Notes under the pieces: model-generated
Databases searched by the model: none
What the model was told of the DNA's origin: nothing
What the model saw: the letters and a program-made list of their open reading frames with translations, nothing else
Translations under genes and position numbers: made by a program
In this document: positions 557-40,450 of the stretch, in pieces
Numbering within the stretch: position 1 is the stretch's first letter
Layout: every line of letters begins with the position of its first letter
Assembly: GCA_030524125.1 (NCBI GenBank)
Contig: JAUNHB010000004.1
Coordinates: forward strand, 1 to 57,478
Direction: 5' to 3'
DNA length: 57,478 bases
From: Eubacteriales bacterium
GTDB lineage: Bacteria; Bacillota; Clostridia; Lachnospirales; Lachnospiraceae

Positions 557-1108
557 TCAAAAACGGCCTATGTTGTTGTCAAAATTGGAGTTTGCTTTTT
601 TCTTGGACTTACGAAACAAAATAATGGAAGCAATGACATCAACGCAAAAGATAAATTGAAGAATACCGTAAAGAAACATTTCACCTGCCGATATAGCCTT
701 ATGATCGTAACTGCGTTTAACAGCGGATATCCCAATGAAACCGCTCAGTACAATAGCCATCGCATCAAACATCATTAAAAGAACGGAAATCGCAAATGTG
801 AAAACGGTAAGCATACATACCGTTCCAACCAGAAAGACAAAAAGATATGCTGGAATGGAAATCGTTTTAATCAACATATTGATTCGGCATAATTCAACGA
901 AATCCCATTTCTTTCTCAGACTGACAGCGCATGTCGAAACTGCGCAAATACAGGCCGCAAACCAAATGACAACCAATATCAGCAGACAGAGATACGCATT
1001 GCTTTGAAATATCGTTTCCATCAGAAAACCGCTGGAAATACAGTACAGTGCAAATGCAACGGCATACGGAAACAACACGATACTTAATGTTGGCATAAAT
1101 TTTTTCAT
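557..1108 (-). CDS. Multi-pass membrane protein, unknown function
   Basis: A 183-residue protein with about five predicted membrane segments and a basic C-terminal tail (FRKSKKKANSN). The open frame extends 18 codons further upstream, but the ATG at 1108 (MKKFMPTL) is preferred because AGGAG lies 8 nt before it and the residues beyond are not membrane-like. The gene is more AT-rich than the housekeeping genes of the window. It is on the same strand as, and 99 nt downstream of, the GHKL histidine kinase. No peptide-pheromone processing motif (AgrB-like) is visible, so I do not call it AgrB. Function unknown. Confidence 0.65.
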   Translation of the reverse strand: MKKFMPTLSIVLFPYAVAFALYCISSGFLMETIFQSNAYLCLLILVVIWFAACICAVSTCAVSLRKKWDFVELCRINMLIKTISIPAYLFVFLVGTVCMLTVFTFAISVLLMMFDAMAIVLSGFIGISAVKRSYDHKAISAGEMFLYGILQFIFCVDVIASIILFRKSKKKANSNFDNNIGRF

Positions 1109-1207
1109 TCGCTTTGCTCCTTTCTGGCATACAAATCCTCTTTTTTTAACGGGACCGCTCATACCAGCTTTATTATCACTGTATCAACAAGAACTTGCAG
1201 CTCCTTT

Positions 1208-2473
1208 TTAGAAATTAAGCCTCTTATTTTCCACTTCTATGTACAGCAGAATCTTTACAAAAAAAGTATCTTTTTCTGCCCGCATCTCCATCAACCCATC
1301 ATACTTTTTGACGATCTTCCTTACATTGTGCAGTCCAATCCCATGCAGCTCCTTATCCGGCTTTGTGGTGAGAAATCTGTCCTGCTCTCTGTCTACTCTT
1401 CCATCAAAGCTGTTTTCTATTTCAATCTGCAAAATTCCTCTTGCAAACATGATACTGACTTTCAGTCTCCTTTCTTCTGTTTGCCCGGCCCCTTCTATGG
1501 CATTTTCCAGAAGGTTTCCCAATATTACATTTAAGTCAAATACATGTGAAAATTTTTCAGGAAGCTGTACCTGTACTTCCACTGTATCTAATTCCTTTTT
1601 TGCCCGCTGAAGCATGTAATTTAACACACTGTCGATTTCCCAGTTTCCTGAAGCGACTATTTCTTCCGGATTCGATACAAATTCCTGCATAGCGTCGATG
1701 TAATTCTGGATTTCACCCGTTTTATCCTGCCCTGCCAAAAGTCTGATTTCATTCATATGATGCTTCATATCATGGCGAAGGGCCTTCACTTTTTCCTCGC
1801 TTTCCATCATCAACTTCATCTGATTGGCATAACTTTGCAGCTTTTGCTGCAGGGAAGCATTTTCATACTTCTGATACAATTCGCGGGACAGCATCTCATA
1901 CAAGTGAAAGACCAGAAAATTAATCAGCAGAAGCCCCCAGTTCACAAGAACCATTCCAAAATCCGTGACGCTGTCCGAATATAATAAAATCGCATTCATG
2001 AGGACGCTGCACAACGGTAATAAAACCAACGCTTTACTTTCGACAAACGCAGTTCTTCTCGTTTTAACCAGTCTTTCTGAAAATAATTCGCATATAAAGA
2101 TAATGAATACAACGAGCACTCCTAAAAATGGACTTGTTTGCTCCCCATCCCTGTAGTCGATGAATAATAGCGTCACACCCACATCACAGACCATATTAAC
2201 TATATAAACAGAGCAGGTCACAAAAAATATCGTTTTTACAGAACGGGTATAGAGCATCACGATTAGGCCGATCCCTATCAAATTACACAGAATATTTACC
2301 CACATCAAATGGAACAGCAGGTAAGCGCCGGTATTGACAAGATAAAAGCCGACGTAAACGAGTATTTCCACCACGCCCGAAGTCCTGCGTTCCCCCAGAA
2401 GCACCTTCATAAACCGATAAATGACATACATCCGAAATAAATTTGATGCCGCGCAAAGAATTACATCCGTCAT
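1208..2473 (-). CDS. AgrC-like GHKL sensor histidine kinase
   Basis: A membrane histidine kinase of about 421 residues. The N-terminal half is a six- to seven-segment hydrophobic domain (about residues 1-200). It is followed by a coiled linker, a phospho-acceptor box ALRHDMKHHMNEI with the likely phospho-His near residue 234, an N-box NLLENAIE near 320 and a G-box GIGLHNVRKIV near 390. This layout is typical of the HPK10/AgrC group that signals to LytTR regulators. The ATG at 2473 is chosen over an upstream in-frame GTG because GGGAGGG precedes it and it overlaps the stop of the preceding abiEii remnant as ATGA, which implies translational coupling. Its natural partner is the LytTR regulator at 3904-4608, from which the AbiE module separates it. 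Confidence 0.85.
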   Translation of the reverse strand: MTDVILCAASNLFRMYVIYRFMKVLLGERRTSGVVEILVYVGFYLVNTGAYLLFHLMWVNILCNLIGIGLIVMLYTRSVKTIFFVTCSVYIVNMVCDVGVTLLFIDYRDGEQTSPFLGVLVVFIIFICELFSERLVKTRRTAFVESKALVLLPLCSVLMNAILLYSDSVTDFGMVLVNWGLLLINFLVFHLYEMLSRELYQKYENASLQQKLQSYANQMKLMMESEEKVKALRHDMKHHMNEIRLLAGQDKTGEIQNYIDAMQEFVSNPEEIVASGNWEIDSVLNYMLQRAKKELDTVEVQVQLPEKFSHVFDLNVILGNLLENAIEGAGQTEERRLKVSIMFARGILQIEIENSFDGRVDREQDRFLTTKPDKELHGIGLHNVRKIVKKYDGLMEMRAEKDTFFVKILLYIEVENKRLNF

Positions 2474-3215
2474 CCTCTGACTTCCCTCCCCTGCCAACAA
2501 AGTCTGGCTGCATTCCATATCATCTGTGTTTCTTCTTCGTGAATGATCGCAAGCCATACCGGTTCAAGAAAATTTTGAATTTCTTTCATTATGTCTGCAA
2601 AAGCAATGGCCGGGTTCCCGAGTGTCTTGAGAAAATATCTCCACTTGGTCTGCATATCCGTATCGTCAGCCAATGTCAGAACACGCTCAAAGCTATCTTT
2701 TTCGTAGGCTGTACCGCGATTTTGAAGAGTTTCCCAAATGGCAGTCTTCAGTTTCACTCCTTCAAAATCGAATGTGCGGGACAGATAATAAATATCATAA
2801 AAATCCTTCATACGACCCGTCAGCTCAAACCTCTGCAAAATCGCGTCGAACTTTTCAGCAATGGTACTTTCAAGCGAATAGGTAAGGATTTCAGGCCTCT
2901 CGAAATCTGCCAACTGCGTCTGAATGTTCCTCCATTCGGCCTTGGGAACGATCACATCTCCTACTCCAATATCTACCTGAAAAGGTACACGGACATTCTT
3001 GATATATCCGGTAATCTGTGTGCTGACACCATGATACTTCCGTTGCAGGGCGACAGGCTTTGTCCCTGACGCCTTAAACGTCACAAAATCATTTCCGGTA
3101 TCCACGGAAAGGACCTCTGCAATGATTTCATCCATTTTAGCCAGATCATGATTCAGCCCACGCATCAGAAAGTCCACATCCTCTTTGCAAGTACAGAAGC
3201 AGCTTTGTCTGCCAT
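2470..3215 (-). pseudogene. AbiEii-type nucleotidyltransferase toxin, internally deleted and frameshifted
   Basis: The expected start is the ATG at 3215, which overlaps the antitoxin stop (TGATG). From it translation gives only 16 residues, MADKAASVLAKRMWTF, and then TGA. A second frame opens with ...EDVDFLMRGL and continues to 2470, giving about 235 residues that match the middle and C-terminal part of AbiEii proteins. The first 11 residues look like a normal AbiEii N-terminus, and DVDF is the second half of the nucleotidyltransferase site. I infer an out-of-frame deletion of about 60-70 codons that removed the helical N-terminus and the KGG motif. A GTG at 3177 after AGAGG might still give a truncated product. 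The C-terminus is intact and its stop overlaps the kinase start. Confidence 0.75.
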
Positions 3216-3814
3216 CACAACCACACCCCTATCAAATCTTTTACCGTCTTTTTCACCCGCAGCAGCCCAGCATATTCCAATAGTCCGGGAACGCTTTTGC
3301 CCGGATCTGCGATATAATTTTGGATCGCCTTGTTGAAAATCTCTTTATCCATCTTATTACGATACCGCAGACAATCACAAATCAGGCGGTCTTTATCATA
3401 AATACGCGCCTGATGCCCCTCTATCTCCCCGACTGTCAATCCGATCTCCAGCAGGGACGGCTCTATATAGTAAGGCTTCACAAATGGATAGTCGATTTTG
3501 AACCGCGACTTACCGGAATCTTTGCTGACAGCCAGATGCCATACAGCAGGCGTCCGATCACTGTAACCGTAATACCGCAGAGCAGTGTCCATACAAAAGA
3601 TCGCATCAGGAAACAGACGAATCACTGTGCCAACTTCGCTGAAATCATCGTGATCGACCCACTGATAATATCCATAGCGGACTTTTTCCACCCAGCCCTG
3701 CCGGATCAGTTTTTGCAGCGGACGATACAAGATATTTTCTGCCTGAAGCTGCTTTGTCCGCATCATGCCGCCATATTTGTCAAATATTTCTTTGTATTCT
3801 GCAATACTTTTCAT
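3215..3814 (-). CDS. AbiEi-type antitoxin / transcriptional regulator
   Basis: A 199-residue protein with the layout of type IV antitoxins of the AbiEi family. An N-terminal winged-helix-like segment (residues 1-50, GGMMRTKQLQAENI and LIRQGWVEKVRYGYYQW) is followed by the C-terminal antitoxin domain (FPDAIFCMDTALRYYGYSDRTP ... DKDRLICDCLRYRNK). In known AbiE systems this protein represses its own promoter through inverted repeats and counteracts the AbiEii nucleotidyltransferase. It appears complete. The toxin ORF follows with a 1-nt overlap but is broken. A perfect-consensus promoter lies upstream at 3879-3907, so the module has its own transcription start inside the two-component locus. Confidence 0.8.
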   Translation of the reverse strand: MKSIAEYKEIFDKYGGMMRTKQLQAENILYRPLQKLIRQGWVEKVRYGYYQWVDHDDFSEVGTVIRLFPDAIFCMDTALRYYGYSDRTPAVWHLAVSKDSGKSRFKIDYPFVKPYYIEPSLLEIGLTVGEIEGHQARIYDKDRLICDCLRYRNKMDKEIFNKAIQNYIADPGKSVPGLLEYAGLLRVKKTVKDLIGVWL

Positions 3815-3878
3815 TTCACCACGCCTACATTACTTTTATGTTCAATACGCTAACAAGCGGATGAACTAGTGCATTTTC

Positions 3879-3907
3879 ATTATAGTAAAGGAGATGCAGT
3901 TTGTCAA
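3879..3907 (-). promoter_or_regulatory. Consensus sigma-A promoter of the AbiE module
   Basis: Read on the minus strand: TTGACA (3907-3902), a 17-nt spacer, TATAAT (3884-3879). Both hexamers are perfect. The -35 box contains the TGA stop codon of the response-regulator gene, so the module starts transcription exactly where the upstream gene ends. Transcription would run through abiEi and the abiEii remnant into the histidine kinase. Confidence 0.85.
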
Positions 3908-4608
3908 CTCGATCCCATCAGCCGCTCCCGTACCTGTTTCCGGTATTTCTTACTGATACTCAACATCGTACCATCTGTCAGCTCCACTTCCTCATAGGCG
4001 TACCGGGCCACAAAGGCCGTATGCACCAGATAGGACTGGTGGATCTTCAGAAATTCCGCAGGAAGTTCCTTTTCCAGTTCTTTGAGCTTCCCGTAAAATT
4101 CCCTCGTCCCGTTCACCGTCACGATCCGGATCTTTCTGCCTTCGCTGATGAAATACATGATGTCCCCATAAGGAAGATAGCAGTAATCCCGCCCGCTCTG
4201 GTACTCGAATCTCGTCTCGTTTTTCCCGAGGATCGTGACCGCCAGCGCAAGAACCTCGTTCACCTGCGCTTGCAGTACCGGCTTTATCAGGAAATCCAGC
4301 GGCTGGGTCTTAAAAAGGCTCTGCGCGTAGGACGCCTTGCCCGATATGTAGACGATCTGAAGCCGTCTGTCCTCCAGCCTGCCGCGGATAAAGCGCCCCA
4401 CCTCAATGCCGCTCAGCCGGAAAAGCTCAATGTCCAGAAAGAGGACGTCGAGGGGATTTCCCGCCCGCAGGTACTCGCAAAGCGCTTCTCCCGTGTTCCA
4501 GCTCTCCGTCCCGAGCTCCAGCTTTTTTTCTTTTGCATAGGATAAGACCATTTTCTCCAGCTCCGAGCAGATATTTTCTCCGTCGTCGCAGATCCCAACG
4601 TAATACAT
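3904..4608 (-). CDS. LytTR-family response regulator
   Basis: A 234-residue regulator. The receiver domain covers residues 1-120, with acidic residues at CDDGEN, the likely phospho-Asp in VLFLDIELF and the conserved Lys in DFLIKPV. The LytTR DNA-binding domain (about 135-232) contains GDIMYFISEGRKIRIVT and FLKIHQSYLVH. Such proteins bind direct repeats upstream of target promoters and pair with GHKL kinases. The ATG at 4608 (MYYVGICDDG) follows GAGG with 8 nt spacing and is preferred to the start at 4620. In this locus the kinase gene is not next to it but about 1.4 kb downstream, behind the AbiE module. Confidence 0.88.
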   Translation of the reverse strand: MYYVGICDDGENICSELEKMVLSYAKEKKLELGTESWNTGEALCEYLRAGNPLDVLFLDIELFRLSGIEVGRFIRGRLEDRRLQIVYISGKASYAQSLFKTQPLDFLIKPVLQAQVNEVLALAVTILGKNETRFEYQSGRDYCYLPYGDIMYFISEGRKIRIVTVNGTREFYGKLKELEKELPAEFLKIHQSYLVHTAFVARYAYEEVELTDGTMLSISKKYRKQVRERLMGSS

Positions 4609-4634
4609 CCCGCACCTCATATTCCCGCTTTTTT

Positions 4635-4657
4635 CTATCTGCCATTTTAACAGATAG
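4635..4657. promoter_or_regulatory. Palindrome over the putative -10 of the response-regulator promoter
   Basis: CTATCTG (4635-4641) and CAGATAG (4651-4657) form a perfect 7-bp inverted repeat around ccattttaa. On the minus strand this contains TAAAAT, which could be a -10 box with a weak -35 TCGACT 17 nt upstream. The position, 27 nt before the start codon, fits an operator or a 5' hairpin. No other copy was noticed. Confidence 0.4.
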
Positions 4658-4726
4658 AAGAGAAAAAGTCGACAGATCCGGACGCGTGGCCGGGCAGTTA
4701 CCTATGAGATTAAATAATATTTTTTG

Positions 4727-4754
4727 TTGAATTTTTTCGTAGATGGTATATAAT
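4727..4754 (+). promoter_or_regulatory. Promoter of the structured RNA / PBECR4 module
   Basis: TTGAAT (4727-4732), 16-nt spacer, TATAAT (4749-4754); an alternative -35 TTGTTG lies 3 nt further upstream with a 19-nt spacer. Transcription would begin near 4761, exactly at the first hairpin of the leader RNA and about 275 nt before the coding region. Confidence 0.75.
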
Positions 4755-4760
4755 ATAGAC

Positions 4761-4989
4761 AGAGCAGAAAGCTCTCGATGAAAGAGCATCGTAAAAAGTT
4801 GGGCTGCAGATGGAGCAGGGTAAATGTCCATCTCTTTAGATGCCTTAACTGGGCATCGAGCCTCGCAACGGGATAATGTTGTAGTCCACGTGGGGGACTT
4901 AATGATTCCTACGTCGTTATTGGTATCTTAACTGGGTATCGAGGCTGACAACCAGCAGAAAACTCTTTTTAAAAACAAATGAAGTTCTT
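4761..4989 (+). ncRNA. Structured leader RNA with two related hairpins, upstream of a nuclease gene
   Basis: The stretch has no ORF and starts at a clear promoter. Visible stems: AGAGC/GCTCT (4761-4775), CGATG/CATCG (4776-4791), AGATGGA/TCCATCT (4808-4833), GATGCC/GGCATC with loop TTAACTG (4839-4857), AGTCC/GGACT (4883-4899), and GGTATC/GGTATC pairing with two G-U wobbles and again loop TTAACTG (4922-4940). The last and the fourth hairpin share loop and flank (..GGGYATCGAG) while the stems differ by compensating changes, which is evidence for selection on structure. GCCTC (4860-4864) can pair with GAGGC (4941-4945) and close the central part. I recognise no known riboswitch or RNA class. It could be an antitoxin RNA, a cis-regulator, or both. 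Confidence 0.65.
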
Positions 4990-5024
4990 AGAAAAGTGTG
5001 GTTAATATCACCACACTTTTCTTT
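4990..5024 (+). terminator. Terminator-like hairpin between leader RNA and nuclease gene
   Basis: A perfect 13-bp stem, AGAAAAGTGTGGT (4990-5002) with ACCACACTTTTCT (5010-5022), loop TAATATC, followed by only a short T-rich tail (TTTTCTTTG). It ends 4 nt before the SD sequence GAGG of the downstream gene. It would terminate most transcripts after the RNA and let some read through, the arrangement seen in type III toxin-antitoxin operons. Confidence 0.75.
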
Positions 5025-5035
5025 GTGAGGTATAA

Positions 5036-5662
5036 ATGGCAACCAAGGAAGAAAAGAAAAACGAAATACGGCAAAAAATTATAGATTCGGCCATGGTATA
5101 TAGCCAGAGCTTATCAGGCAATGTGTTTTTATATGTGTATGGCAGTGATTTTTTTGAGGTATCGTTCCCTGTGGATTGTTTTCTTCATTTGACCGGTGTC
5201 ACTACATCCTTGTCTGCAAAAGCATTTTATAGGAATGCCAAAAGAAGAGAGCTTACGACTCGCCAGTTCTATTTTGACGGCAGACATCCATATGCAAATG
5301 CAAGAAAGAAGCTTCCCTGCTTGAAAAGATTGCCGGAACTTACGAACGAGGTGGTTTGTGTTCTTCGGGATACGCAGACTCAAACGGTTACATATAAATT
5401 AAGCGTAACCAATTTGGAGTTCACCTTGGGCTTAACAGAAAACATTGGTAAAGATGGAGCGAAAATCAACGACTACTTTTTGCCAAAGTCTTTGCGGGTC
5501 AAAGATTCTGCGATTGAAAAAAGCAGCGGCGGAGAGGTGGTAGATTTTATATTCTCAAAAAGCGCCAGCGTAGCAAAGTATAATAAGCTGCTGGTTGAGG
5601 ATAAAACTAAGAAAATACCAGACTGCGTAAAACATTTGATACATGGGGATTTTCTGGAATAA
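5036..5662 (+). CDS. PBECR4-like nuclease domain protein (putative toxin)
   Basis: A 208-residue soluble protein. Its central part (NVFLYVYGSDFFEVSFPVD, FLHLTGV, LSAKAFYRNAK, LTNEVVCVLRD, YKLSVTNLEFTLGLTENI) resembles the PBECR4 domain of the barnase/EndoU/colicin E5-D/RelE-like nuclease superfamily. The assignment is from memory of family sequences and is moderately sure. Conserved polar positions that could be catalytic include H and T in FLHLTGV and the R/K-rich stretch after it. GTGAGG precedes the ATG by 5 nt. Base composition is visibly lower in GC than the next genes, suggesting transfer. It is monocistronic behind a structured RNA and an attenuator-like hairpin and is followed by its own terminator. 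Confidence 0.7.
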   Translation: MATKEEKKNEIRQKIIDSAMVYSQSLSGNVFLYVYGSDFFEVSFPVDCFLHLTGVTTSLSAKAFYRNAKRRELTTRQFYFDGRHPYANARKKLPCLKRLPELTNEVVCVLRDTQTQTVTYKLSVTNLEFTLGLTENIGKDGAKINDYFLPKSLRVKDSAIEKSSGGEVVDFIFSKSASVAKYNKLLVEDKTKKIPDCVKHLIHGDFLE

Positions 5663-5679
5663 AAGAATAGTGCAGGCAA

Positions 5680-5706
5680 AGGCATCAGCTTCTGGTGTCT
5701 TTTTTT
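5680..5706 (+). terminator. Intrinsic terminator after the PBECR4-like gene
   Basis: AGGCATCAG (5680-5688), loop CTT, CTGGTGTCT (5692-5700), a 9-bp stem with G-U pairs, then a run of T residues. It closes the RNA-plus-nuclease unit, making it a self-contained cassette of about 1 kb. Confidence 0.85.
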
Positions 5707-5788
5707 GTGCTCACAGTCCTGTATCACCTTTTCTCTAATAGAAATTTGGTAAAAACACGCCAAAAATGACGTAATCAATAGATTCTTG

Positions 5789-5797
5789 TGTTATACT
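5789..5797 (+). promoter_or_regulatory. Extended -10 promoter of the ParB-BMP gene
   Basis: TGTTATACT fits an extended -10 (TGn followed by TATACT). No good -35 is present. It lies 75 nt before the start codon at 5872. Confidence 0.5.
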
Positions 5798-5871
5798 GAT
5801 CACAATACGGCGAGGACTGAACGTCTATGATAACGGAACTCAGAGACAAAAAACAGAGAGGAGCGCATCCT

Positions 5872-7797
5872 ATGTCCAAGACAGAATACCAGAAAGCAAG
5901 AAGAAAGGCACAGAAAACCTACCGCATGCAGCTATTAAAGGGAGAATGGCCCTATCTGCAGGCGCTGGACGACATCGTCTCGTTCACCGACGTCGCCGCC
6001 AGCACGGAACTCGGGCTCTGCGAGATCTCTCTGGACGCGGTGGCCGGAACGCGGACCTCCGGGCGCAAACAGGCCTTCGCCAGCGATTTTATGCCGCTTC
6101 TGGAGGACGACAGCGAGTTTGCATGGAAGTGGATCAATCTGTACGAGGCGCATATGGAGGAGGGGATCCGGGAACCCATCACCGCTGTGGAATTTATGAA
6201 CCGCTACTATGTGGTGGAGGGCAACAAGCGGGTCAGCGTCCTCAAATACGTGGGCGCCGTCAGCATCCACGCCTATGTGACCCGTATCGTTCCCAGACGG
6301 GACGATTCCAGGGAAAACCGTATTTACTATGAATTTCTGGATTTTTACCGGGTCTCTCAGGCAAATTACCTGACCTTCTCCCAGGAGGGCTGCTACGCCA
6401 GACTTCTGTCTCTCCTGGACAGGGATCTTCAGACCGAGTGGACGGCGGACGAACGTATGGAATTTCACTCGGCTTACCTTCATTTTCTGGACGTCTACGA
6501 GGAGCGGGGCGGCAAAAGTCTCCGCCTGACGGCCGGGGACGCGTTTCTCGTCTATCTGGAGATCTACGGCTATGAGGGCCTTCCGGACAAATCCTATCAG
6601 GAGCTTCGCCGGGAGATCCCCGCGATCTGGAAGGATTTTGAGATCTATCCCGAAAAACGCAGCATAGAGCTTGTCATGGCCCCGGAGGAGCCGCCCTCCG
6701 CGCCGGTCTCCGTGCCCCGCCTGCTCTCCCGCGCCGCGCCCCGCCTGAAGATCGCCTTTATCTACGACCGGGATCCCGCGGTGTCGAGCTGGGCGTACGG
6801 GCATGAGCTTGGGCGGCTCTATCTGGCCGACGCCCTGAGAGACCGGGCCGACGTCTCCCGCTTCACCGTGCAGGGCGGCCCGGAGAAGCAGCTCCAGACG
6901 ATCCGGCAGGCGGCGGAGGAAGGAAATTCGCTGATCTTTACCACCAGCCCCCGCCTTTTGAACGCCAGCGTAAAGGCCGCGGTCCTCCTTCCCGACGTGA
7001 AGCTTTTGAACTGCTCCTTAAATTCCTGCTTCGGCCATCTGCGCACCTACTACGGGCGCATGTACGAGGCCCGGTTTTTGAGCGGCCTGCTGGCCGGGAT
7101 CTTAAGCCCCGAGCCGTCCGTGGGCTACGTGGCGGATTATCCCATCTACGGCTCCACCGCCAACATCAACGCCTTCGCGCTCGGCGTGCGCACCACCAGG
7201 CCCGATGCAAAGGTCTATCTGGAATGGTCCTGCGTCCGGGACAATCCCGCGGAGGAATATTTCCGGGCCAGAAGGATCTCCTGTATCTCGGGTCTCGATC
7301 TTCTGAGCCCGTCCAAGGCTTCCCAGCGGCATTTCGGTCTGTACGACACCTCCGGCGGCCAGATCCGCAATCTGGCCATGCCGGTCTGGAACTGGGGAAA
7401 ATTTTACGAGCGGATCGTGCGCTCCGTCCTGACCGGCGCGTGGAAGCGCACGGAGCCCGCCTCGGATTTTAAGTCCGTCAACTATTTCTGGGGGATGTCC
7501 TCGGGGCTGATCGACCTGATCTGCTCCCACCATGTGCCGGACACCGCCAGACGGCTGGTGGAGGCCATGGGGCGCGAGATCAGCTCCGGAGCGTTCCAGC
7601 CCTTCGGCTGCCGGGTCGTCTCGCAGGACGGCGTCCTCCAAAGTCCCGCCGGAGAGGATATGCCCGCCGGGCAGATCGGTTCCATGGACTGGCTTCTGGA
7701 CAACGTGGTGGGAGGCTTCCCCGCTCTGGACAGCCTGACGGACGAAGCGCTGGAGATCGTCCGGCTGCAGGGCGTGGACGGCTTTCGGGAGGAATGA
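5872..7797 (+). CDS. Cytosolic ParB-like / BMP-family binding-protein fusion
   Basis: A 641-residue protein without signal peptide or membrane segment. The N-terminal part has a basic start (YQKARRKAQK) and near residues 100-140 a ParB/sulfiredoxin-like motif (EPITAVEF, YYVVEGNKRVSVLKYVG). From about residue 290 it resembles the BMP/PnrA-like nucleoside-binding fold of ABC-transporter binding proteins (LKIAFIYDRDP..SSWAYGHELGR, SVGYVADYPIYG, NINAFALGVR). In that family the protein is normally a lipoprotein; here no export signal exists, so an intracellular sensor or enzyme is likelier. The start at 5872 follows AGAGAGGAG; the frame opens 15 codons earlier without an SD. The stop overlaps the next gene region, so both are cotranscribed. 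Confidence 0.75.
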   Translation: MSKTEYQKARRKAQKTYRMQLLKGEWPYLQALDDIVSFTDVAASTELGLCEISLDAVAGTRTSGRKQAFASDFMPLLEDDSEFAWKWINLYEAHMEEGIREPITAVEFMNRYYVVEGNKRVSVLKYVGAVSIHAYVTRIVPRRDDSRENRIYYEFLDFYRVSQANYLTFSQEGCYARLLSLLDRDLQTEWTADERMEFHSAYLHFLDVYEERGGKSLRLTAGDAFLVYLEIYGYEGLPDKSYQELRREIPAIWKDFEIYPEKRSIELVMAPEEPPSAPVSVPRLLSRAAPRLKIAFIYDRDPAVSSWAYGHELGRLYLADALRDRADVSRFTVQGGPEKQLQTIRQAAEEGNSLIFTTSPRLLNASVKAAVLLPDVKLLNCSLNSCFGHLRTYYGRMYEARFLSGLLAGILSPEPSVGYVADYPIYGSTANINAFALGVRTTRPDAKVYLEWSCVRDNPAEEYFRARRISCISGLDLLSPSKASQRHFGLYDTSGGQIRNLAMPVWNWGKFYERIVRSVLTGAWKRTEPASDFKSVNYFWGMSSGLIDLICSHHVPDTARRLVEAMGREISSGAFQPFGCRVVSQDGVLQSPAGEDMPAGQIGSMDWLLDNVVGGFPALDSLTDEALEIVRLQGVDGFREE

Positions 7798-36193: not shown

Positions 36194-36273
36194 AATGATG
36201 TTGTATTTATGGAGTTCCCATACATCAAGCTGCGACCAGTTACTCGTGGTCCGGGATCTTTCCCGCTGCTTTC

Positions 36274-36440
36274 ACAGGCAGGTCTCCTGACTTACGGATC
36301 CATACGCAAAACCGCCTTCCCGATAGACTCAGTGGCATACCGGCTATGCGCTCCCCGCTTACAGTGACGAGTTCGTACAGGATTTTCACCTGTTTCCCTT
36401 TTCATCAGACTGACTGCCCGGCAGTCTGTCCGACACCTGT
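36274..36440 (-). promoter_or_regulatory. Cobalamin (B12) riboswitch aptamer
   Basis: Read on the minus strand, hallmarks occur in order: ACAGG (P1, 36440-36436), GGGAAACAGGTGAAAATCCTG, GTCACTGTAAGCGGGGAG, GCCACTGAG, TCGGGAAGG, and the B12 box AAGTCAGGAGACCTGCC (36293-36277), closed by CCTGT (36278-36274). A further hairpin CGGGA-AAGA-TCCCG follows, then the terminator. The element controls the cbiK-ABC operon, which should therefore be on when cobalamin is scarce. Confidence 0.95.
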
Positions 36441-36446
36441 AAATAT

Positions 36447-36475
36447 ACAGTAGCACACGAGCATCCAAATTGCAA
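36447..36475 (-). promoter_or_regulatory. Promoter of the cobalamin-riboswitch operon
   Basis: On the minus strand TTGCAA (36475-36470), 17-nt spacer, TACTGT (36452-36447). Start of transcription would be close to the aptamer P1 stem. Confidence 0.55.
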
Positions 36476-40312: not shown

Positions 40313-40321
40313 AAACATAAG

Positions 40322-40415
40322 AACTGCACGACTGACGGAAAGCAGACGTAAGCGTCTGTGGTAGGGCGACCTACAGGAAGTGCAGCGGTATTGTTAGACA
40401 GCCGACCGTCTGGGC
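40322..40415 (+). promoter_or_regulatory. ZTP/ZMP (pfl) riboswitch aptamer
   Basis: CTGCACGACTGACGGA, hairpin CAGACG-taag-CGTCTG (40343-40358), hairpin GTAGG-gcga-CCTAC (40361-40373), then GGAAGTGCAGC: CTGCAC (40324-40329) pairs with GTGCAG (40380-40385). The second domain contains CCGACCGTCTGGGC, matching the conserved CCGCCUGGGC of pfl riboswitches. The ligand is AICAR 5'-mono- or triphosphate, the substrate of the downstream AICAR transformylase, so the logic is consistent: accumulation of ZMP turns the operon on. Confidence 0.85.
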
Positions 40416-40450
40416 GCATTGCAGGACTTGCCATGCATCCGGGCGGTTTT
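40406..40450 (+). terminator. Terminator of the ZTP riboswitch
   Basis: CCGTCTGG (40406-40413) pairs with CCGGGCGG (40439-40446) through G-U pairs, followed by five T. The 5' arm is part of the conserved aptamer sequence, so ligand binding and termination exclude each other. Confidence 0.8.

Follow-up and report, generated by a model that had tools for sequence, protein, structure and literature searches.

The window analyzed here, a DNA stretch of 57,478 nucleotides (nt), is a single contig (JAUNHB010000004.1) from a genome assembly in 95 contigs, 80% complete, of a bacterium of the Lachnospiraceae family, and carries on its + strand, at positions 4727-5702, a cassette of about 1 kb that is probably a module made of an RNA antitoxin and a ribonuclease toxin. 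Its parts are, in order, a promoter-like site, a leader of ~270 nt, a hairpin, a Shine-Dalgarno (SD) sequence, an open reading frame (ORF) of 208 residues, and a second hairpin. The promoter-like site (TTGAAT-16-TATAAT, 4727-4754), already recognized in an earlier, sequence-only reading of this DNA, matches the sigma-70 consensus, and TATAAT falls inside the first 20 nt in 29 of the 34 rows of the alignment of related leaders (A4). The ensuing structured non-coding RNA, hereafter type W, is the predicted antitoxin and would cover positions 4761-5024, with its start deduced from the promoter and its end from the terminator; the sequence-only reading was right about a structured RNA, but the length of 230 nt that it proposed is too short, the predicted transcript up to the terminator comprising ~260 nt. 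The terminator-like (attenuator) hairpin at 4990-5022 possesses the perfect 13-bp stem described earlier, part of which is also recovered by folding. It is trailed by a TTG and then by the SD-like TGAGG (5026-5030), the distance from hairpin end to SD being 3-4 nt (4 nt in the earlier description), and the ATG of the gene (5036-5662) lies at 5036. Downstream of the gene, consensus match and folding agree on a terminator-like hairpin (5678-5702), where a terminator had been expected. The GC content of ~0.40 at 4751-5500 compares with 0.55 at 4001-4500 and 0.53-0.65 at 5751-7000, so the cassette is AT-richer than these neighbors, as had been claimed, but not than positions 1001-3500 (0.39-0.46), a region holding most of an AbiE pair; low GC is therefore no special mark of the cassette.

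Pfam analysis of the gene product reports a strong hit with PBECR4 (PF18813; E 5.5e-25, 89.3 bits against a curated cut-off of 27), in keeping with the PBECR4-like nuclease put forward earlier, and the protein also matches phrog_18856 (E 3.3e-34). NCBIfam and PADLOC profiles return no match up to E 1, and a PDB search with a 33-row profile reports only two glycerol kinase matches (E 0.26), taken as chance. The sequence-only reading had seen no recognizable ToxN, CptN or TenpN in this protein, and PBECR4 is indeed its only Pfam match up to E 1; the Pfam and PDB profile matches thus seem to set PBECR4 apart from these three toxins, a remote homology being possible. The protein exhibits an HLTG motif whose His and Gly are invariant in 32/32 diverse PBECR4 members, and the His, residue 51 of the window protein, is invariant in 33/33 rows. 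With a median dN/dS (nonsynonymous to synonymous rates) of 0.078, computed on the 6 of 325 pairs that have an unsaturated dS, and a median pN/pS (the corresponding proportions) of 0.235 over all 325 pairs, PBECR4 is, by these ratios, under purifying selection. The PBECR families of Pfam presumably derive from the PBECR clade of the work on polyvalent proteins. That work predicts PBECR domains to be endoRNases that act in conflict systems and need no metal, five of the six families having a His in their N-terminal helix (PMC5512222), a residue that is not equated here with the His of HLTG. PBECR4 is accordingly referred to as a predicted endoribonuclease.

The leader (4756-5030) folds with a z-score of -4.61, terminator hairpin included, and none of 200 shuffles folds as well. 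It matches no Rfam family at the gathering cut-off, and six matches up to E 10 within 4650-5750 are all far under their own cut-offs; the drum RNA (RF02958) does not match the window RNA up to E 10, and neither the abiF RNA (RF03085, Rfam) nor Abi_2 (Pfam) matches the cassette. Relatives were drawn from 299 genomes of the family, 391 genomes of the class, GTDB contigs (53 loci) and IMG/VR (one locus), and the resulting type W alignment contains 34 leaders, the window and 33 relatives. The structural model comprises 62 pairs in 12 helices, pseudoknots included, and 98.0% of its 2094 cells are paired. Changes on both sides of a pair affect 23/62 pairs and 68 cells, as compared with shuffle means of 8.7 and 14.1, and no shuffle out of 500 is as high. 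Sliding the partners lowers the pairing to 35-48%, a comparison biased in favor of the model over its slid versions, as it was from the window sequence that the pairs were derived. The alignment of upstream regions with homologs, which the sequence-only reading had suggested as a check, therefore yields a conserved and covarying RNA in 34 sequences; of the outcomes that it had named as counting against it, two that sequence can address, homologs devoid of an upstream RNA and a leader belonging to a known RNA family, did not occur, as close homologs carry the RNA and Rfam returns no match.

The predicted type W fold starts with a CGATG/CATCG hairpin (4776-4791) whose loop (4782-4786) is complementary to the 3′ tail (4963-4967) and could in this way close the RNA into a ring; in this hairpin and this closure (helices 2 and 3), 8/10 pairs never vary and two are changed on both sides, in one sequence each. 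The following GTTG (4798-4801) can pair with the CAAC loop (4949-4952) of the last hairpin to form a second ring-closing helix (helix 4), which is invariant in 34/34 sequences and hence offers no covariation test of that closure. Both ring-closing helices being almost invariant, ring closure in type W is a feature that we infer. Next comes an H-type pseudoknot (4804-4833), made of an invariant CTGC/GCAG stem (helix 5) and of a loop (4808-4814) pairing with 4827-4833 (helix 6, both-side changes in 4/7 pairs). It is followed by a first repeat hairpin (4839-4857, helix 7) with the loop TTAACTG, a GCAAC/GTTGT hairpin (4865-4882, helix 8), a second H-type pseudoknot (4883-4914) with an invariant AGTCC/GGACT stem (helix 9) and a loop (4888-4894) pairing with 4908-4914 (helix 10, both-side changes in 4/7 pairs), a second repeat hairpin (4922-4940, helix 11) with the same TTAACTG loop, and the last hairpin, GCTG/CAGC, with its A-rich tail able to close the ring (4944-4967; helices 3, 4 and 12). 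The repeat hairpins share their loop and flank within a 26-nt direct repeat (D1; 4844-4869 and 4927-4952, 85% identical, 83 nt apart), and both of their stems covary in relatives, in agreement with the compensatory stem changes noticed earlier. At the second pseudoknot (alignment columns 155-179), RNAalifold favors a long hairpin, and the choice of the pseudoknots over this hairpin is not proven; moreover, the enclosing stems never vary, so the type W data reveal the loop-tail helices without establishing that these form together with the stems. A leader-encoded antitoxin peptide was considered and rejected on sequence grounds. ORFs of at least 15 residues start at one shared column in 31/34 sequences, yet their TTG start lies inside the invariant structural GTTG and no SD is seen upstream. 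In 7/34 rows, moreover, the frame is shifted by an extra base at column 139. The longest leader ORF in any frame ranges from 20 to 51 residues among the 34 sequences.

A structured leader ending in a terminator-like hairpin recurs among PBECR4 genes. The survey covers 86 leaders distinct by their last 150 nt, interdependent (37 are window-type) and including those of broken genes, for which the 280 nt 5′ of the start codon were folded; the controls are 85 ORFs of at least 150 residues, from the window and the GTDB and IMG/VR loci, each preceded by a free stretch of 150 nt or more. The mean fold z-score is -3.19 for the leaders (61/86 at or below -2) versus -1.46 for the controls (25/85; Mann-Whitney 6e-10), and the last 95 nt contain a terminator-like hairpin in 65/86 leaders versus 11/85 controls (Fisher 2.6e-17), including 8/9 of the leaders with a drum RNA. 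At five loci (L117, L119, L126, L131 and L132), a hairpin is visible by eye that escaped recognition, the start codon being wrong or the stem imperfect. A mechanical scan for H-type pseudoknots, which demands 5 loop-tail pairs and thus more than type T described below has, reports at least one in 58/86 leaders versus 24/85 controls, and at least two in 36/86 versus 3/85. At L117 (Peptoniphilus vaginalis), a PBECR4-like ORF (YHHFT) is seen by eye 835 nt past the match start, perhaps as part of a tandem pair.

At least five RNA classes (W, G, T, drum and C) appear to precede PBECR4 genes. Type G, whose hosts include Veillonella, Granulicatella and several Lachnospiraceae, is built from H-type pseudoknot units of ~32 nt, two of them in tandem at 10/15 loci. 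In its alignment (24 of 25 units; L014_u1 left out as a copy), 92.6% of the cells are paired and 24 cells carry both-side changes, a value reached by 0/500 shuffles, while the number of pairs with double changes is equalled by 16/500. Type T (10 of the 11 sequences found; L012 left out) has 97.6% of its cells paired and 9 pairs with double changes (0/500 shuffles); its loop-tail helix is formed by six different, fully complementary sequence pairs across 10/10 aligned sequences, and each of its two ring-closing helices shows one double change. Another covariation measure, the further pair types, did not beat the shuffles (459/500 as high for G, 386/500 for T). The loop-tail helices covary in W, G and T; their partner stems are invariant in W and vary in one pair each in G and T, so that few changes speak for the two stems forming together. 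Class C, at L037-L040, was set apart by eye. L126 presents two classes in one place, a type T RNA (1967-2105) lying shortly 5′ of a type G RNA (2227-2351) and its PBECR4 gene.

The drum RNA, reportedly described by Weinberg and others in 2017, lies directly 5′ of PBECR4 in 9/34 loci scanned. Its search in 382 genomes of the class located drum at 23 places, spread over 18 genomes; the place in G475, with 41.6 bits, scores under the cut-off. PBECR4 directly follows at 12/23, the gene being broken or partial at L059 and L073. Two other places (L066, L067) show by eye the beginning of a PBECR4-like gene that is then interrupted, another meets the contig end (L078), and no clear result came from looking by eye for drum pseudoknots. 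Five drum copies devoid of PBECR4 (L072, L074-L077; genomes G314 and G532), four near-copies in one genome and one in a congener, all precede a similar terminator, drum there behaving as a dispersed element. Judging by its place beside PBECR4, this orphan RNA family gains a likely job.

The RNA classes follow the protein. On a tree of 54 chosen PBECR4 proteins, restricted to rows with an assigned class (17 W, a subset of the W rows, with 14 G, 10 T, 9 drum and 4 C), the five classes need 4 changes, which is the minimum, while shuffled assignments need 30.9 on average and none of 200 does as well. It is a quick tree, with 21/51 inner branches open, a long row (L022) and a short one (L125, 38% of columns), and seven loci (L029, L031, L042-L044, L121 and L122) are placed in no RNA class. 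Types W, T, G and drum are all found in the family of the window or in named Lachnospiraceae genomes, and the tree rows nearest to the window protein are Lachnospiraceae; close relatives occur in Roseburia porci and Lachnoclostridium sp. An169. The RNA class thus appears to be co-inherited with the protein clade. Insertion sites seem mostly different, as a flanking ORF is shared in 12/780 pairs of 40 loci, some only as distant paralogs, within at most ~2.5 kb per side (3 kb in L132). Phages and plasmids return no DNA match to the cassette and phages no protein match; the one plasmid protein match, on a Butyrivibrio plasmid, has by eye a terminator hairpin just 5′ of the SD, and the W model reports nothing above 6.1 bits there. 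One IMG/VR contig (L132/L145) holds RNA and PBECR4 gene next to an amidase-type lysis gene, identified by eye, while viral sequences return no type T motif match and no A3 match. A phage or plasmid origin was rejected on the scarcity of such matches. In 311 genomes of the class, the W model reports matches in 4, two of which (the window and G510) are training sequences or copies; a match in G422 (20.4 bits, E 8.8e-4) is taken as chance.

Natural alleles couple the state of the RNA with that of the gene. At four loci (L106, L107, L109 and L111) the RNA segment between the repeat hairpins is deleted and the gene is broken in 4/4, whereas at loci with a full-length RNA, it is intact in 29/35 and broken or missing in 6/35 (Fisher 0.0026; L108 is counted as full because of its full-length model match, and L110, L112, L115-L117, L118 and solo RNAs are left out). 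At L118, little is left but the terminator hairpin, and the gene is broken too. In the family, the W model matches 12 genomes (four of them used in training); PBECR4 is present in five, whether intact, broken or as a remnant, while none is seen in the other seven (G040, G082, G113, G118, G130, G169 and G263). Among the latter, G118 and G130 yield both pseudoknots in the scan and G040 and G082 the second alone, the RNA of G169 is cut short, and the contig of G082 ends ~420 nt past the RNA. G475 carries a full W RNA without PBECR4 on one contig, and drum with a PBECR4 fragment on another. L144 (G263:C9) combines a W RNA (42.9 bits, E 1.3e-10), a hairpin seen by eye and, behind them, an Abi_2 gene (PF07751, E 1.4e-18), with no match to the Rfam abiF RNA up to E 0.5; this single RNA-Abi_2 pairing could be a chance joining, but a protein of the Abi_2/AbiF kind serves as toxin in a reported RNA-antitoxin system (PMC12373285). 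At L141 (G113:C201), ~28 nt separate the end of the W RNA from the start of a small ORF, itself followed by a 193-residue ORF; no terminator is seen there and the ORFs have no clear Pfam match.

The operon order, the covarying RNA helices, the co-inheritance of RNA class and protein clade, the mostly different insertion sites and the allele pattern together argue for a type III-like module with a toxin outside the recognized ToxN relatives, a reading to which we give a probability of roughly 0.7. The RNA-regulated toxin cassette proposed by the sequence-only reading fares well wherever sequence can speak, its toxin-antitoxin function being deduced. One predicted promoter with an RNA upstream of the toxin gene, a predicted Rho-independent terminator between the two, and a pseudoknotted antitoxin, as suggested by the loop-tail helices of W, G and T, are the type III features found; the picture is less clear for the repeats, with two imperfect copies in the window RNA and tandem units in type G. 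As the protein shows no likeness to ToxN-type toxins in Pfam, the cassette is read as type III-like with a different toxin family. The single promoter would yield the pseudoknotted RNA, and the hairpin before the gene would halt most transcripts, so that the RNA exceeds the nuclease mRNA. This RNA would string together hairpins and H-type pseudoknots, with pairing between its two terminal units closing the ring, and may bind the PBECR4 protein and block its putatively toxic activity. Arrest of transcription or decay of the RNA, as on phage attack, would then free the nuclease to cut RNA, possibly in defense against phages.

Several observations weigh against the module so described. PADLOC has no match for the cassette, and no ToxN homology is seen by Pfam, PBECR4 being the sole match of the protein. 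The window RNA has two imperfect repeats, unlike the short tandem units of ToxI. No terminator is recognized in 21/86 leaders; at L029, where the start of the PBECR4 model is missing from the frame, the leader is also unstructured (z 0.2). When window-type leaders are set aside, at least one pseudoknot is found in 22/49 leaders (24/85 controls; 17% of their own shuffles) and at least two in 7/49, a drop indicating that much of the pseudoknot signal is window-type. Drum has no PBECR4 behind it at 8/23 places, 4 of these 8 being near-copies in one genome. The deletion alleles are related sequences and so represent few independent events, and the many solo RNAs and broken genes indicate decay at some loci. 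A wider claim is that PBECR4 may form a widespread superfamily of RNA-neutralized toxins, the antitoxin RNAs of which fall into five or more classes, drum included, and are built as ring-closed pseudoknot chains and able to be re-paired with unrelated toxins, the latter as suggested by the W-type RNA before an Abi_2 gene; we put it forward tentatively, at somewhat less than even odds.

The main rival, rather unlikely in our view, is an RNA acting solely in cis, as an attenuator or riboswitch that gates read-through of the hairpin and does not bind the protein. The end of the hairpin so close to the SD would suit such a leader, as would the RNA lying upstream of the gene and on its strand in the leaders inspected, and RCd22 is reported to reduce abiF expression transcriptionally as well (PMC12373285). 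However, several dissimilar RNA classes serve one protein family and track its tree, which would be odd for a ligand sensor, full-length RNAs exist with no PBECR4 behind them, and all the RNA-deletion alleles found have broken genes; the chains of loop-tail pseudoknots also resemble the pseudoknot antitoxins described in PMC5086642. If the RNA instead served as guide, sensor or scaffold within an active ribonucleoprotein, such as an RNA-armed anti-phage nuclease, excess RNA, as expected from a terminator before the gene, would fit less well than with inhibition, and so would the six broken genes with an intact RNA when no counted locus pairs an intact gene with a deleted RNA. We find this improbable, even with the co-inheritance of RNA and protein and the W RNA before an Abi_2 gene on its side, AbiF proteins having been linked to Cas13 ancestry (PMC12373285). 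A decaying or chance structure before a stray phage gene, to which the broken or solo loci and the low GC could point, is very improbable given the recurrence in many genomes, the purifying selection on the gene and, as a strong objection, covariation in three RNA classes.

Elsewhere in the window, an AbiEi (3215-3814)/AbiEii (2470-3177) pair is located on the - strand within 1208-4620, flanked by a LytTR response regulator (3904-4620) and by an ORF (1208-2557) that by eye looks like its histidine kinase. AbiEii appears truncated, being devoid of its N-terminal part: its best PADLOC match begins only at position 76 of the model, and upstream the frame is closed. A cobalamin riboswitch (36260-36455, - strand) and a ZMP/ZTP riboswitch (40318-40422, + strand) are also present.

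An RNA antitoxin behind a terminator is a known kind of system, while the toxin family and the RNA classes appear new in this role, within the literature searched. No mention of PBECR4 was found in the open-access literature, nor of PF18813 among the matches listed, and PBECR occurs in one work on polyvalent proteins and in another naming PBECR3. If the reading holds, a predicted BECR-type nuclease family would join the few toxin families held by RNA, drum would gain an immediately testable function, and these small cassettes of cultured gut bacteria could serve for measuring RNA-protein co-evolution and possible toxin exchange. As to polyvalent phage proteins, PBECR domains are fused or solo in phages, with no RNA partner seen for them, and "noncoding RNA" is absent from the text of that work (PMC5512222). 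Drum occupies the same position 5′ of PBECR4 at the 12 places mentioned above, but the window RNA belongs to another class and does not match it; PMC7657543 treats drum for its structure. The closest layout is that of AbiF/RCd22 from Clostridioides difficile, reported to behave like a type III system and composed of a promoter, a structured RNA with two motif copies, a Rho-independent terminator, a ribosome-binding site and a toxin gene encoding an Abi_2/AbiF protein (PMC12373285). It is also found near phage lysis genes, as is L132/L145 with its gene named by eye, but it differs by its toxin (Abi_2 versus PBECR4) and its RNA, as RCd22 comprises 132 nt, while the window RNA, devoid of an RF03085 match, is about twice as long and predicted to be pseudoknotted. 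As described in PMC5086642, type III systems combine a single promoter with an RNA of several repeats that folds into pseudoknots, a Rho-independent terminator and an endoribonuclease. With ToxIN, CptIN and TenpIN, the cassette shares the operon order, the terminator between RNA and gene, an RNA with H-type pseudoknots and a predicted endoribonuclease, and the tandem type G units of ~32 nt come close to the 34-36 nt of ToxI repeats; in contrast, its protein matches PBECR4 alone in Pfam and its window repeats are two imperfect copies. Lastly, AvcID is a type III system with a deoxycytidylate deaminase as toxin, no terminator predicted between avcI and avcD, and an RNA antitoxin of up to ~300 nt (PMC10511110). 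Although its toxin is a deaminase, it resembles the cassette in combining a toxin other than ToxN with a long RNA antitoxin, and its example shows that such systems can use other toxins.
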